Shown piece after piece: positions 8,753 to 31,436 of a DNA stretch of 41,390 nucleotides (its first letter is position 1; every line of letters starts with the position of its first letter). The notes under the pieces are model-generated. The model searched no databases and was not told where the DNA came from. It saw only the letters and a program-made list of their open reading frames with translations. The translations under genes were made by a program, and so were the position numbers. Source of the stretch: an uncultured Ruminococcus sp. (GTDB lineage Bacteria > Bacillota > Clostridia > Oscillospirales > Acutalibacteraceae); assembly GCA_902777275.1 (NCBI GenBank), contig CACYTI010000018.1, forward strand, positions 1 to 41,390, in the 5' to 3' direction.

Positions 8753-8788
8753 AACAAAACTCCTATGAAACAACGGGAGGACAGCACA

Positions 8789-9991
8789 ATGAAAAAAACT
8801 GTAAAAATTATTACGGTTCTGCTTGCGGTGGTTCTTTTGGTTTCTGCTGTGCCGTTTGCGGTAACGGCGGCGGAAACTTTCCAAAGCGTGGGAGCAAAGA
8901 GCGGCAGAACCGGCGACTGTACATGGAAGATAGACGACAACGGCACGCTGACTATCAGCGGAAACGGTAAAATGGGAGATTATTCGTATTTTGAAGGTTC
9001 TGCTCCTTGGGTTGATTTGGGAATAAAGCGCGTTATCATTGAAAAAGGAGTGAAAAACATTGGTAATCTCTCGTTTTATCATTGCGAAACATTAACAGAT
9101 ATTTTTATCTCTGACAGCGTAACCGAAATCGGGTCACAAGCGTTTCTATTATGCAAAAAATTAGATGATATTGTTATTCCGAACAGCGTGACAAAAATCG
9201 AATCTTCTGCGTTTTCATATTGTGAGAATCTGAAAATAGTTAAGATTCCCGACAGTGTGACAAGTATTGGAAAAAGTGCATTTGACAATTGCAAAGGACT
9301 GACGAAAATTGAACTTTCCAAAAATTTAACTTCGCTTGGACCGCTCGCGTTTGATTCCTGCACGGGATTGACAGATATTGTTATTCCGCCAAAAGTAACT
9401 TCCATTGAATACACTACATTTAGAAATTGTACTTCTTTGAAAAGTGTTGAGATGCACGATGGCATAACAAGCATCGGAGATAGTGCGTTTTGTTCCACTG
9501 CATTAACAAGTATAAAAATCCCCGACAGTGTGACAAATATAGGTTATAGTGCTTTTAGTTCATGCAACGAACTTATAAGCGTAAAGATACCCGATGGAGT
9601 TACAAATATACGAGGAGAAACTTTCGAAAACTGCAAAAAACTGAGAAGGGTTATTATTCCAGCCAGTGTGACCAAGATATATAATAACGCGTTTGATTAT
9701 TCCGATAATGTCACTATCTACGGAACAGAAAACTCATCCGCTCAGAGCTTTGCCGAAGATTACGGTATCCCGTTTGTGTCGATCCTTCCCGGGATCATCG
9801 GCGACGCAAACAACGACGAGTTGGTTGATGTCCGCGACGTTACCTGTATTCAGCGCCATATTGCCGAGTTTGAATTGATAACGAATAAAAGAACTTATCT
9901 CGCAGACTTTGATTGCGACGGAGAAGTGACCGTGGCGGACGCGACGCTCCTGCAAATGTTCCTTGCCGAATATGACGTACAAATAAGCTAA
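8789..9991 (+). CDS. secreted BspA-type leucine-rich-repeat protein with C-terminal type I dockerin
   Basis: This 400-residue protein has a signal peptide (Lys-rich start, hydrophobic core, AVTAAE cleavage region). A short domain ending in LTISGNGKMG follows, then about ten BspA-like LRR_5 repeats of roughly 23 residues (pattern VTSIGxxAFxxCxxLxxIxIPDS). Residues of about 338-400 form a type I dockerin with two calcium-loop segments (DANNDELVD and DFDCDGEVT). The start at 8789 follows GGGAGG by 8 bp; an upstream in-frame ATG at 8765 lacks a site. Dockerins dock to cohesins on scaffoldin or cell-wall proteins, so this is probably a surface-displayed adhesion or substrate-binding component. It carries no enzymatic domain. 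It is paralogous to the protein at 23699. Confidence 0.92.
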   Translation: MKKTVKIITVLLAVVLLVSAVPFAVTAAETFQSVGAKSGRTGDCTWKIDDNGTLTISGNGKMGDYSYFEGSAPWVDLGIKRVIIEKGVKNIGNLSFYHCETLTDIFISDSVTEIGSQAFLLCKKLDDIVIPNSVTKIESSAFSYCENLKIVKIPDSVTSIGKSAFDNCKGLTKIELSKNLTSLGPLAFDSCTGLTDIVIPPKVTSIEYTTFRNCTSLKSVEMHDGITSIGDSAFCSTALTSIKIPDSVTNIGYSAFSSCNELISVKIPDGVTNIRGETFENCKKLRRVIIPASVTKIYNNAFDYSDNVTIYGTENSSAQSFAEDYGIPFVSILPGIIGDANNDELVDVRDVTCIQRHIAEFELITNKRTYLADFDCDGEVTVADATLLQMFLAEYDVQIS

Positions 9992-23698: not shown

Positions 23699-26422
23699 AT
23701 GAAGAACGCAAAAAAATGGTTCAAAAAAACAGCGGCTGCTCTGCTTGCGGTTTTACTTTTGGCTTCGGTTGTGCCTCTCACCGTTTCGGCTGCGGAGGCA
23801 GATCAAAGCACGGGCGCAAGCAGCGGCACGACCGGAAAATGCACATGGACGCTTGACAGCGGCGTGCTTACGATCAGCGGAAACGGGGCTATGGGTAATA
23901 ATTCGGCGTATTCCAAGCCGTGGGGAAGATCGATCAAAAGCGTTATTATTGAAAACGGCGTTACTAAAATCAGCGTGGACGCGTTTTCCAACAGCCCGTA
24001 CTTAGCGAGCGTCGCCATTCCCGACAGCGTTACCGAAATCGGCGGCGGCGCGTTTTCCAATTGCACAAGCCTTACGTCAATAAGTATTCCCGGCGGTGTG
24101 AAGGTTATAGGTTCTCGTGCTTTTTTCGGCTGTACGGGCTTGTCAAATATAACGATACCCGACAGCGTAGAATATGTCGGAAATTACGCGTTTAATAACA
24201 CAATATGGTATGATAATAAACCTGACGGCTTGGTATATATCGGTAAGGCGGTCTACAAATATAAAGGGACAATGCCTTCAAATACGTCCATAGTCTTAAA
24301 AAACGGAACAAAATGCATTTCCGGGGACGCGTTCTGCAACCTTGCGAACCTGACAAGCATAACAATTCCCGAGGGTGTGACAAGTGTCGGCAACAATGCG
24401 TTTTTGAGTTGCAAAGGTCTGACCGGCATAACGCTTCCCGACAGTGTGACAAGTATCGGCAGAGAAGCTTTTTCAGCCTGCACAGGCTTGAAAATCGCTG
24501 TTATCGGAAACGGCTTAAGGATTATTGAGAAGTATTCGTTTAATAGGTGCACCGCTTTGAGAAGCGTCACATTCGGCAACAGTGTGAAGACTATCGGTGA
24601 GTTCGCTTTTTACGGCTGCACGAGTTTAGCGAACGCGGATCTTCCCGACAGCTTGACGAGTATCGGTAAGTTCGCTTTTTACGGCTGCACGAGCTTAGCG
24701 AACGCGGATCTTCCCGGCAGCTTGACGAGTATCGGTGATTCCGCTTTTTACGGCTGCACCGGCTTGGCGAGCGTTGTTATCGGGAACGGATATACGGATA
24801 TCGGCGAAAATGCGTTTTATAACTGCACGGGTCTTACAAGCGTAACAACAGGAAACAGCATAAAAAATATTGGCGTTTCCGCTTTTTATAACTGCACTGG
24901 GCTTACAAATATAACAACGGGAAACCGTATAAAAAGCATAGGTGAAAATGCGTTTTTCGGTTGTAAAAGCTTAAAAAGTTTTATTATCCCGGACAGCACG
25001 ACGAGTGTAGGCATCAAAGCGTTCAGTGGTTGCTCGGGCATGACAAGCTTATCTATAGGCAGCGGCGTCACGAGCCTCTACAGCTCGATGTTTTCAGGCT
25101 GCACGGGCCTGACAAGCATTGTCATTTCTCCGGATAATTCTGCTTATGACAGCAGAAACAATTGTAACGCTGTTATTGAAACCGCTTCAAACAGGCTTGT
25201 GAAGGGCTGCAAAAAAACTGTGATCCCAGATGGCATTGCTATTATCGGAGATTACGCATTTTACAACTGCAAGGGTCTGAAAAGTATTGTTTTTCCGGAT
25301 AGCCTGGCAAGCATTGAAGAATATGCGTTTTCCGGCTGTACGGGCTTGACCTGCATTGCTTTTCCCGAGAGCGTGACAAGAATTTGCGGCAGTGCGTTTT
25401 ACGGTTGTACAAGCCTTAAAAGCGCGATCATTCCGGACAGTGTGACAACCATAGACAGAGGCGCGTTCGGAAACTGCGGCAGTGTTTTGACCGTGTATGG
25501 TTTCAGGGGCTCGGAGGCGGAAAACTACTGTATAAATAACTCCGTTAATTTTCTGACCTTGTATGAATATTCGGATTTGGGTAGCAATAAGTTAATGATT
25601 ACCCAATGCAACTTCATTGATTCTTTGGGCAGCTTATCAATACCGTCGTCTATCGGCGGAAAAACCGTAACTCAAATCGGTGAATGGCTCATTGCGAACA
25701 ACACGAAATTGAAAAGCGTTTCAATTCCCGATACCGTGACAAAAATCCTGAGGGGCGCGTTCTATAACTGCACTGAGCTCAGAACGGTAAGAATGGGCAG
25801 CGGAGTTACCGAAATAGGCGAGAGCGCCTTTGAAAAATGCCTGTTCCTCGAAAGCATAAACCTCAGCAGCGGACTCAAGAAAATCGGCGACGAGGCGTTT
25901 TACGATTGCCGCAGGCTTAAAACTCTCAGTATTCCCGATACGGTTATGTTAATAGGGGAGGAAGCGTTCACAAATTGCCGCAGCCTGCAAAGCCTTATAA
26001 TCCCGAACGGGGTTAAAAAGTTAGGCGACGGCACGGGCTTCGGTATCTTTGAAAACTGCAAGAGTCTGAAAGCGATAAAGATTCCCGAATCGGTGAGATT
26101 TATTCAGAACAACGCCTTTGACGGCTGTTTGGATGTGACAGTCGTGGGAGCAAAGGATTCATATGCCGAAAACTACTCCGCGAAAAATCATCTCCGTTTT
26201 TCAATAATGGGCAGTAATCCGGTTGGAGATACGAACCTCGACGGCGTTGTAAATATAAAGGACACCACTGCCATTCAGCGCCATATTTCGGAGCATGAAA
26301 CGCTTACGGGCAACGCGTTCTTCCTCGCTGACACAAACCGCGACGGAAAAATAACCGTAGCTGACGCCACGCTGCTGCAAATGTACCTTGCGGAGTATGA
26401 CGTGCAGATTAAGACAAGCTGA
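23699..26422 (+). CDS. large secreted BspA-type LRR protein with C-terminal type I dockerin
   Basis: This 907-residue protein has an N-terminal signal peptide (KKWFKKTAAALLAVLLL, cleavage near TVSAAEA). A short domain ending in LTISGNGAMG matches the paralogue at 8789. About 26 LRR_5 repeats of ~23 residues follow, interrupted by three longer linkers. A type I dockerin occupies about residues 842-903, with loops DTNLDGVVN and DTNRDGKIT. The family forms elongated solenoids used for adhesion, and the dockerin predicts attachment to a cohesin-bearing scaffold on the cell surface. Two adjacent repeats are nearly identical at the DNA level (24592-24729). The ribosome binding site is AAGGGGG. The gene ends directly against a truncated Rpn remnant. 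Confidence 0.93.
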   Translation: MKNAKKWFKKTAAALLAVLLLASVVPLTVSAAEADQSTGASSGTTGKCTWTLDSGVLTISGNGAMGNNSAYSKPWGRSIKSVIIENGVTKISVDAFSNSPYLASVAIPDSVTEIGGGAFSNCTSLTSISIPGGVKVIGSRAFFGCTGLSNITIPDSVEYVGNYAFNNTIWYDNKPDGLVYIGKAVYKYKGTMPSNTSIVLKNGTKCISGDAFCNLANLTSITIPEGVTSVGNNAFLSCKGLTGITLPDSVTSIGREAFSACTGLKIAVIGNGLRIIEKYSFNRCTALRSVTFGNSVKTIGEFAFYGCTSLANADLPDSLTSIGKFAFYGCTSLANADLPGSLTSIGDSAFYGCTGLASVVIGNGYTDIGENAFYNCTGLTSVTTGNSIKNIGVSAFYNCTGLTNITTGNRIKSIGENAFFGCKSLKSFIIPDSTTSVGIKAFSGCSGMTSLSIGSGVTSLYSSMFSGCTGLTSIVISPDNSAYDSRNNCNAVIETASNRLVKGCKKTVIPDGIAIIGDYAFYNCKGLKSIVFPDSLASIEEYAFSGCTGLTCIAFPESVTRICGSAFYGCTSLKSAIIPDSVTTIDRGAFGNCGSVLTVYGFRGSEAENYCINNSVNFLTLYEYSDLGSNKLMITQCNFIDSLGSLSIPSSIGGKTVTQIGEWLIANNTKLKSVSIPDTVTKILRGAFYNCTELRTVRMGSGVTEIGESAFEKCLFLESINLSSGLKKIGDEAFYDCRRLKTLSIPDTVMLIGEEAFTNCRSLQSLIIPNGVKKLGDGTGFGIFENCKSLKAIKIPESVRFIQNNAFDGCLDVTVVGAKDSYAENYSAKNHLRFSIMGSNPVGDTNLDGVVNIKDTTAIQRHISEHETLTGNAFFLADTNRDGKITVADATLLQMYLAEYDVQIKTS
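24592..24729 (+). repeat. 69-bp in-frame tandem duplication inside the LRR gene
   Basis: Copies 24592-24660 and 24661-24729 differ at only about three bases, and each encodes one 23-residue repeat (core AFYGCTSLANADLP). All other repeats in the gene are far more diverged, so this is a recent expansion by slippage or unequal exchange. Confidence 0.85.
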
Positions 26423-29228: not shown

Positions 29229-29996
29229 TCACGACGCGTTTTTGATTTGCAGGCGCAGGCGGTCGGAAATCATGGCGATGAACTCGCTGTTGGTCGGCTT
29301 GCCTCTGTCGTTGTGGATAGTGTACCCGAAATACGAGTTGAGCACGTCGATATCTCCGCGGTCCCATGCCACCTCGATCGCGTGACGAATAGCGCGCTCC
29401 ACACGCGACGAGGTGGTTTCATATTTCTTGGCAACCGAGGGATAGAGCTGTTTTGTCACGGCGTTGATGATCTCGGGACGCTCCACCGACATGATGATAG
29501 AGTCGCGCAGATAGTGATATCCTTTTATATGAGCCGGAACTCCGATCTCGTGCAGGATTTCCGTCACCTTAAGCTCGATGCCGAACGCGTCTACGCTTAT
29601 CGGCATACGTAGCAGGCGGTCGCTCTTTTTGACCATAAGGCGGATATTTTCACAAAGCTGTCCCACGTCATACGGCTTCAACACAAAGTAGCTCGCTCCG
29701 CCGTTCATTATCTCTCGCTCCAGCACCGCGCTGTGAAAGGAAGAAAAAACTATAAACAGCGGCTGCTTGCAATTTTGTCGTTTAATGCTGCGCATGACGC
29801 CGATTGCGTCCAGCCTTGTCATAAACGACTCCATAAGCACCACGTCGGGCTGCTCCTGTATTATACGGCTGCAAAGCTCCTCGCCGTCCTTGGAGCAAAA
29901 GGCGATAGAAATATTAAAATTTTGAAACTTTTCAAGATTTTCTCTATCAAATTCGGCAGCGTCCTCGGTAATCATCAGTTTAATGCTATTGTCCAT
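29229..29996 (-). CDS. spo0A: Spo0A sporulation master regulator with Glu at the phosphoacceptor position
   Basis: This 255-residue protein has a response-regulator receiver domain (about 1-120) and the Spo0A-specific DNA-binding domain. The latter is well conserved: [37 protein letters not shown] and [13 protein letters not shown]. In the receiver, the position normally held by the phosphorylated Asp (PDVxxLDxxMP) reads [11 protein letters not shown], so residue 56 is Glu and the following Pro is Thr. The acidic pair (E11, D12), a hydroxyl residue (Ser85) and the conserved Lys107 remain. In known Spo0A proteins phosphorylation drives dimerisation. Here it may be absent or mimicked. The gene follows spoIVB on the same strand, the classical order, and has its own promoter. 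Confidence 0.95.
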
Positions 29997-30030: not shown

Positions 30031-30059
30031 ATTTTACCACAAAATGGTAAACTTGGCAA
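30031..30059 (-). promoter_or_regulatory. sigma-A type promoter of spo0A
   Basis: On the minus strand TTGCCA (30059-30054) and TAAAAT (30036-30031) are spaced by 17 bp, about 35 bp before the start codon. A TGTCGAAA (minus strand, 30163-30156) in the end of spoIVB is a possible upstream 0A box, but a 7-mer core is expected several times by chance in this window. Confidence 0.6.
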
Positions 30060-30143: not shown

Positions 30144-31253
30144 CTAATCTTCGTATTTCGACACCATATTTTGCGCTGTTATGCCATATCCCTCTTCGGG
30201 TGAGTTGAGGAACACATGTGTGACGGCTCCCACCAGTCTGCCGTCCTGAACAACGGGGCTGCCGCTCATTCCCTGAACGATCCCCCCGCATTCGTCAAGA
30301 AGATTCAAATCTGTAATTTTTATGACAAAATTTTCATTTATGCCGCTGTCAAGACTGCAGATGCTTATGATCTCGGCTTCATACGAGGCAGATTCGCTGC
30401 CCTTGACTGTGGTGTAGATCTCCGCTTTACCGACGTGGATCTCTCCGTTTTCCGCTAACTCAAGCGAAACGCCGTTTTGCAGATTATTGTCGTTTGTTGT
30501 CCCGAACACTCCGCAATCGGTGTTTTTTGTCAGCTTTCCGAGCACCTTATCGGTAAAATAACCGTTCAGACTGCCCGCCTTGCCCGCCGAGCTTCTGCTC
30601 GCGGAGCTTATGCTGACACTTACGACCTCCGCTTTGCCCAAAGGCATAAGCTCTGAGGTGTCGCTGTCGCATATTCCGTGACCGAGCGCGGCAAAATAAT
30701 TGTTGCCGGGGTCGTAGAAGGTCACGGTTCCTATCCCCGCGCAGCTGTCGCGCACCCATGCACCCAATAAATATGAGCCTGCCATATTCTTTTTGGGGGT
30801 GACGGTCTTGACAAGCTCCTTTCCGTTGCGCTCCACGGTGAAGACGACGGGATTTCCATCGCTGCCGAATGCCGCAAGCTGTAAATCCTCGTTGTTGGCA
30901 ACCTTTGTTCCGTTAACTTCTTTAATGACGTCGCCCACCGCGAGTCCGCCCTCACGCGCGGGACAAATATATCTGCCATCGCTGAAAAAATCCTCAAGCT
31001 CCGTAATCATAATGCCGTCGCTGAAAAACTTTACTCCGAATGGCTGACCGCCGAGCACCACGGTTTTGCGCGGAGCTTCATCTGCCGCCGACACCGTAAG
31101 GACAGATGAAGCGTTTAGCGCTGTTATGACGGACAGCGCCGCCGCAATGACTTTTGTTTTGCAGGAGAATAGTTTATTTTCTTTTTTAAAATTATTGCCG
31201 ATATTACAATGCGCTGCCTCGGCAGATTTAAAGCTTATATTAAAAAAATTCAA
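30144..31253 (-). CDS. spoIVB: SpoIVB serine peptidase (S55 family)
   Basis: This 369-residue sporulation protease starts with an N-terminal membrane anchor (about 34-57), followed by a PDZ domain (about 75-145, with VGDVIKEVNGTKV) and the S55 peptidase domain. The catalytic triad is readable as His192 (ALGHGICD), Asp315 (KITD) and Ser330 (VQGMSGSP), with the same 15-residue Asp-Ser spacing as in Bacillus subtilis. SpoIVB is made in the forespore and cuts SpoIVFA to release SpoIVFB for pro-sigma-K processing. TTG 31253 is the likely start with AAGGTG 5 bp upstream. It precedes spo0A. Confidence 0.93.
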   Translation of the reverse strand: MNFFNISFKSAEAAHCNIGNNFKKENKLFSCKTKVIAAALSVITALNASSVLTVSAADEAPRKTVVLGGQPFGVKFFSDGIMITELEDFFSDGRYICPAREGGLAVGDVIKEVNGTKVANNEDLQLAAFGSDGNPVVFTVERNGKELVKTVTPKKNMAGSYLLGAWVRDSCAGIGTVTFYDPGNNYFAALGHGICDSDTSELMPLGKAEVVSVSISSASRSSAGKAGSLNGYFTDKVLGKLTKNTDCGVFGTTNDNNLQNGVSLELAENGEIHVGKAEIYTTVKGSESASYEAEIISICSLDSGINENFVIKITDLNLLDECGGIVQGMSGSPVVQDGRLVGAVTHVFLNSPEEGYGITAQNMVSKYED

Positions 31254-31436
31254 AAAAATCACCTTCTTTCCGTTGCCTTTCTTATTGTTTCCGATTATAA
31301 TAATAAATAAGGTCGTTTTTTAATATTATTATAGTTATTGGAAAAGACCGGAAGCGGAGAGTTTGTTTCATTCGTAAAAGCGGAGTGAATTCAAATATTT
31401 TTTAAATTTTTCATTATTTTCAAGTTGAGGTTAGTT

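Follow-up and report, generated by a model that had tools for sequence, protein, structure and literature searches.

Entry into sporulation is taken to follow phosphorylation of Spo0A at its acceptor aspartate in all endospore formers (PMC11210211). The stretch of DNA analysed here (the window, 41,390 nucleotides) belongs to an uncultured Ruminococcus sp. and encodes a Spo0A which has glutamate in place of this aspartate at residue 56 (E56), and raises the question of how such a regulator, and with it the decision to sporulate, is controlled.

The window protein is a genuine Spo0A adjoining spoIVB (Table 1). On the whole-protein equivalog profile TIGR02875 (spore_0_A) it scored 269 bits, above the cut-off of 200, and the domain profile search gave 156.8 bits for Spo0A_C and 36.8 bits for Response_reg, in agreement with the original prediction of a Spo0A with a conserved DNA-binding domain. 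Its domain order is that of the Bacillus and Geobacillus Spo0A (TIGR02875; receiver 1QMP, DNA complex 1LQ1), and its DNA-binding domain is 55-61% identical to theirs and shares a stretch of 18 residues with 1lq1. The neighbouring gene spoIVB, which is also the neighbour in Bacillus, where we take the spoIVB-spo0A order to be the same, scored 243.8 bits for Peptidase_S55 and 305.3 bits for spore_IV_B (cut-off 305.25). The prediction that spoIVB is kept therefore stands, but the SpoIVFB-like protein expected along with it was absent among the 20 window ORFs scanned, a subset of the ORFs of the window. The genome comprises 57 contigs and 2.59 Mb, and a plasmid search with window positions 1-25000 gave zero matches. 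Besides, the window encodes two BspA-type leucine-rich-repeat proteins, one at 8765-9991 (LRR_5 and Dockerin_1, with a dockerin-like region at its end) and another at 23699-26422 with a dockerin-like end judged by eye; such endings are as expected, given that the amylosome-bearing R. bromii is related.

Table 1. Features of the spo0A locus in the window, with protein domains given in residues of Spo0A
Feature	Position	Strand	Basis or remark
spo0A ortholog, 255 aa	29229..29996	minus	ORF, profile matches, alignment, AlphaFold2 model, Foldseek
Pseudo-receiver of Spo0A	about residues 3-125
Intact Spo0A_C DNA-binding domain	residues 144-247
Codon 56, Glu for phospho-acceptor Asp	29829..29831	minus	position computed from ORF start
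Predicted sigma-A type promoter of spo0A	30031..30059	minus	TTGCCA, 17 bases, TAAAAT
Palindrome TTTACCATTTTGTGGTAAA	30033-30051		within predicted spo0A promoter
spoIVB (SpoIVB peptidase S55)	30144..31262	minus	directly upstream of spo0A

The predicted placement of the glutamate at the acceptor site was confirmed by alignment, structure prediction and structural search. When HMMER aligned the protein with the known receiver structure of Spo0A (1dz3/1qmp), no gaps were needed, and E56 and K107 fell in line with the Asp of LLLDIIMPHLDG and with the Lys, respectively. The AlphaFold2 model (mean pLDDT 82, pTM 0.53; ten-residue blocks at 82-96 over residues 1-120) has E56 as the final residue of strand beta-3 (52-56), S85 as the final residue of beta-4 (80-85) and K107 right after beta-5 (103-106), and these three residues stand where the catalytic D, T and K are expected. 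Foldseek matched 1qmp_B, the receiver of Spo0A in its phosphorylated form, the target TM-score being 0.82. D51 and D63, the aspartates that might have served as acceptor in place of residue 56, are ruled out, neither being at the acceptor place in the alignment or the model. A canonical receiver has an acceptor Asp closing beta-3, where Glu56 is found here; the window receiver is therefore not classed as a canonical phosphorylatable receiver, and its receiver fold with no Asp at the acceptor place is that of a pseudo-receiver. The remaining catalytic positions, namely the metal ligands E11 and D12 along with S85 and K107, are all present. Misreading of GAC or GAT as GAG is also ruled out, because 16 distinct proteins carry E56 and they do so with two Glu codons (GAG in 11, GAA in 5).

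These 16 proteins comprise 12 from genomes of the genus of Ruminococcus bromii, which we take to be Ruminococcus_E in GTDB, and four from a collection of named loci. The genus sample consisted of 100 genomes including that of the window and provided 90 Spo0A proteins, with D56 in 78 and E56 in 12; one partial protein (G210) was left out and nine genomes had no close match, among them G225 (93% complete) and G246 (91% complete). On a tree of 131 proteins, built with column 56 included, the 16 E56 proteins make up one side of a single branch with support of 99/90, recovered in 200/200 bootstrap trees. The change from D56 to E56 happened once in this clade, and the idea that E56 is a clade-wide trait is upheld. 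All 16 members have E56, S85, Y103-F104 and K107 invariant, and in all 16 loci, the window included, spoIVB lies upstream of spo0A. Each of the fourteen named E56 loci (L123-L136) has a title marking it as uncultured, and RUG isolate names, which presumably denote rumen genomes, are found on 11 of them.

Two further details of the original prediction were true in part. The acidic pocket and Lys107 are kept in the window, but the metal ligand D12 is replaced by Asn in four of the 16 clade members. The window has Thr at residue 60 for the Pro of Bacillus and Geobacillus, as was pointed out, but this replacement is not coupled to E56: Thr60 is genus-wide (83 of 90 proteins) and is therefore no part of the E56 change. 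The Spo0A proteins of R. bromii strains YE282, ATCC 27255 and 5AMG, which are 84, 77 and 76% identical to that of the window, likewise have Thr60, but D56 is kept in them.

At E56, normal aspartyl phosphorylation would be impossible, and phosphotransfer would therefore no longer feed Spo0A. The glutamate most likely touches K107 and S85, a contact that would lock the receiver in a partly active form. The reading that we favour and consider reasonably likely is that this is a genuine Spo0A from a bacterium of the spore-former type within the R. bromii genus, with a receiver that has turned into a pseudo-receiver, is not set by Asp phosphorylation, is fixed partly active by E56 and is controlled through the amount of Spo0A or through a partner. 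It draws on an E56 of single origin that appears to be kept by selection, on the conservation of S85, F104, K107 and the DNA-binding domain (K107 being kept more often with Glu than with other replacements outside the genus), on the presence of two spore markers in most members, on the scant evidence for a dedicated kinase input in four genomes and on the conserved predicted promoter. The bacteria carrying E56 probably start sporulation by some other route, and of the options raised at the outset, a hard-wired Spo0A or one under a different mode of control still fits best.

A plain constitutive phosphomimic, by which E56 Spo0A would be permanently and fully active, so that its synthesis alone would set off sporulation, is in our judgement unlikely. 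The retention of K107 and S85 in all 16 members agrees with it, as does the observation of a 2015 review that, where receivers lack the aspartate, Glu takes its place most often (26%; PMC4395418). However, the same review states that a D-to-E change alone is often insufficient and names Spo0A as an example, citing Green 1991 (PMC4395418), and Glu is described in general as a possible yet unreliable phosphomimic in two sources (PMC12632262, PMC4395418). The loss of the ligand D12 in four members also speaks against full activity, and keeping a master regulator fully active would presumably carry a cost. Control might instead have stayed phospho-dependent with the receiver modified in another way, by phosphorylation of Glu, of another Asp or by a Ser/Thr kinase. 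S57, S85, D51 and D63 are close in sequence, and modification of Glu is named as a possibility in the review (PMC4395418), but D51 and D63 lie away from the acceptor place in the model and residue 57 is Ala in two of the 16 members, leaving this a slim chance.

The receiver of the E56 clade is under purifying selection, with a median pairwise dN/dS of 0.134 as compared to 0.107 among the near D56 relatives (pairs limited to dS 0.1-1.5, which retained 91 of 120 and 43 of 630 pairs, respectively). The corresponding values for the DNA-binding domain were 0.035 (45 pairs) and 0.024 (58 pairs). Since the receiver value is slightly above that of the D56 relatives, a mild relaxation is possible. At codon 56, Glu is one third-base transversion away from Asp; within the clade, GAA and GAG have interchanged synonymously at least four times with zero changes from E to D, due to which Glu appears to be kept by selection. 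This signal is modest, about 1 in 20 and from one site: the least number of transversions needed averaged 2.97 over 60 four-fold sites, and 5% of these sites had none.

The spore programme was gauged by two markers, SpoIVA and SASP. SpoIVA was detected in 10 of the 12 E56 genomes and in 20/20 D56 genomes of the genus, and SASP in 9/12 and 15/20, respectively; the E56 genomes missing a marker were 83-91% complete. Because both markers persist in most E56 genomes, loss of sporulation in the clade is not supported, and the suggestion of a lineage leaving sporulation with remnants of the programme is not borne out, the receiver being under purifying selection as well. R. bromii L2-63 of the same genus forms heat-resistant spores (PMC5814915); for an E56 member, no published report of spore formation was found. 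We also looked at decay, with sporulation being lost and the receiver drifting, as an explanation of the altered pocket. The erosion of pocket residues across the order, the slightly raised receiver dN/dS, the absence of SpoIVA in 2/12 and SASP in 3/12 E56 genomes and the 9/100 genus genomes with no close Spo0A are all compatible with it. But a receiver dN/dS of 0.13 is far below 1, E56 has been retained over the synonymous switches, the genomes lacking markers are incomplete to the extent given above, and SASP is absent in 5/20 D56 genomes as well, which makes decay quite improbable.

The original prediction also raised the loss of histidine kinases along with E56. This was not observed, as HisKA counts were alike in both groups (3-11 per genome with a median of 6 in the 12 E56 genomes; 4-10 with a median of 7 in the 20 D56 genomes). 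Through the neighbourhoods of 27 HisKA proteins in two E56 (G000, that of the window, and G269) and two D56 genomes (G201, G254), we identified a same-strand adjoining response regulator for 25, called with a profile built in this analysis. Of the other two, L398 gives a match to the response-regulator profile in its own sequence and is a probable hybrid, and L394 is a fragment (G000 contig C3, 40646-40846), a HisKA stretch in a 228-aa frame with no in-frame ATPase domain, whose appearance suggests a large kinase that is broken or was misassembled. Pfam confirmed HisKA in all seven proteins of G000 and the ATPase domain in six. Unlike Bacillus, the four genomes encoded no stand-alone orphan kinase of the HisKA class, and Spo0E was found in 0/64 genomes with the B. 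subtilis control positive; as it is absent from all 64, its loss is uninformative as a marker of E56. The lack of orphan HisKA kinases in the E56 and D56 groups alike suggests, from the HisKA neighbours of these four genomes, that input from kinases had already been weak or absent when E56 arose. HisKA proteins of about 1000 aa, which are probably hybrids, were present in other E56 genomes (e.g. G271, G212, G223 and G284), and a hybrid-kinase input to Spo0A in E56 genomes is possible.

The genome of the window encodes a second Spo0A_C protein of 265 aa (L002:1012-1809, contig C9) that has an intact acidic pocket and acceptor Asp (EDD and VLD). Such a paralog could have taken over the phospho-dependent work and left the E56 copy free to change, but it occurs in only one of the 12 E56 genomes, the other 11 having no second Spo0A_C protein, and its DNA-binding domain is divergent (76.9 bits vs 158.8 bits for Spo0A in the genome profile search). 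Compensation by a paralog is thus rejected as a general account, and takeover by it is very improbable. This paralog was excluded from every Spo0A count. Weak matches in the Spo0A_C range in further genus genomes are candidates only, and one member of the order (G381) had six Spo0A_C matches.

Under the favoured reading of a receiver fixed partly active by E56, the sporulation decision would lie in the amount of Spo0A, through transcription from the conserved predicted promoter, and/or in a partner binding the receiver. The predicted promoter (Table 1) has TGTG one base before the -10 element. TTG plus TRTGGTA was present upstream of spo0A in 81/88 genus, 77/109 family and 16/55 order regions, compared to 0.2% in letter-shuffled sequence, and a looser core of the palindrome in 65/88, 41/109 and 4/55, respectively. 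The element is shared with D56 relatives and hence did not originate together with E56. Judged from its sequence, the promoter-like element is a candidate control point for the amount of Spo0A, and the operator-like palindrome is a possible binding site for a regulator.

To see how far the loss of the acceptor extends, Spo0A was compared across the family and the order, the latter taken by us to be Oscillospirales. The family sample of 200 searched genomes gave 109 distinct proteins selected by DNA-binding-domain score, mostly one per genus, and D56 was absent in 10 (five E, four N, one W); K107 was absent in nine of these 10 vs 21 of the 99 that keep D56. Elsewhere in the order, D56 was absent in 27 of 96 Spo0A proteins, in a sample from 245 genomes partly chosen for low scores (30 best-scoring, 30 picked for low scores and 40 middle); by stratum the counts were 6/28, 12/28 and 9/40, respectively. 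The count of 96 distinct proteins follows from moving L307 to the family, which raised that set to 110, from leaving out the short L311 and L341 and from merging one duplicate. On a quick tree of 223 proteins, with column 56 left out and with long branches that meet, the D/non-D state has to change 27 times (gains or losses), and starred branches impose 16 of these changes. The acceptor Asp has hence been lost repeatedly, 16 being the least number of changes that the well-supported branches of this tree allow. The sporulation markers were present with and without it: SpoIVA in 10/10 family genomes with non-D56 Spo0A, 12/12 with D56 and no K107 and 9/10 with the canonical pocket, SASP in 10/10, 11/12 and 9/10 of the same, and SpoIVA in 25/27 order genomes with non-D and 21/22 with D Spo0A.

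All five catalytic positions were kept in 35/90 genus, 50/110 family and 28/96 order proteins. Outside the genus, K107 was kept in 18 of 23 proteins with a Glu replacement vs 4 of 14 with other replacements (Fisher p 0.005, not corrected for kinship). We read this as two routes, in one of which Glu would retain a working E-K contact and in the other of which the pocket would have collapsed; the two are not cleanly apart, because five of the 23 Glu proteins lack K107. The second metal ligand, which we take to be D11 in B. subtilis numbering, is non-acidic in 51/96 order proteins. Among the 169 proteins from outside the genus that keep the acceptor Asp, only 105 have an acidic residue there, and for this reason impaired metal-dependent phosphorylation may be more widespread than acceptor losses by themselves would indicate.

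Receiver folds lacking the acceptor Asp are known from the pseudo-receivers ChxR, RitR, BldM and WhiI (PMC4395418, PMC12632262, PMC4125116). These are other regulators and not Spo0A; the nearest parallel is with BldM and WhiI, atypical regulators of Streptomyces spore development. In pseudo-receivers Glu is common at the acceptor and Asn at the second metal ligand (PMC12632262), and both replacements are found in the E56 clade. A published description of a natural Spo0A with no acceptor Asp was not found in a search that covered few subscription journals, nor was any paper combining Spo0A and D56E, and the available portions of PMC6136694 and PMC11210211 make no mention of a natural Spo0A of this kind.

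Across the order, Spo0A may repeatedly have given up aspartyl phosphorylation with the sporulation programme kept, so that much of the gut spore-forming flora would sporulate without phosphorylated Spo0A, a reading which we put forward tentatively. The clade of the window would then be the Glu variant in which the rest of the switch is preserved, other lineages having lost Lys107 and the metal site as well. The on/off switching of bacterial pseudo-receivers is called a mystery in PMC12632262, and the series from D56 through E56 to the collapsed pocket offers a natural series showing how a pseudo-receiver evolves. If a natural Spo0A works without phosphate, the sporulation signal of many gut anaerobes would differ in kind, and this would bear on the spread of gut anaerobes between hosts.
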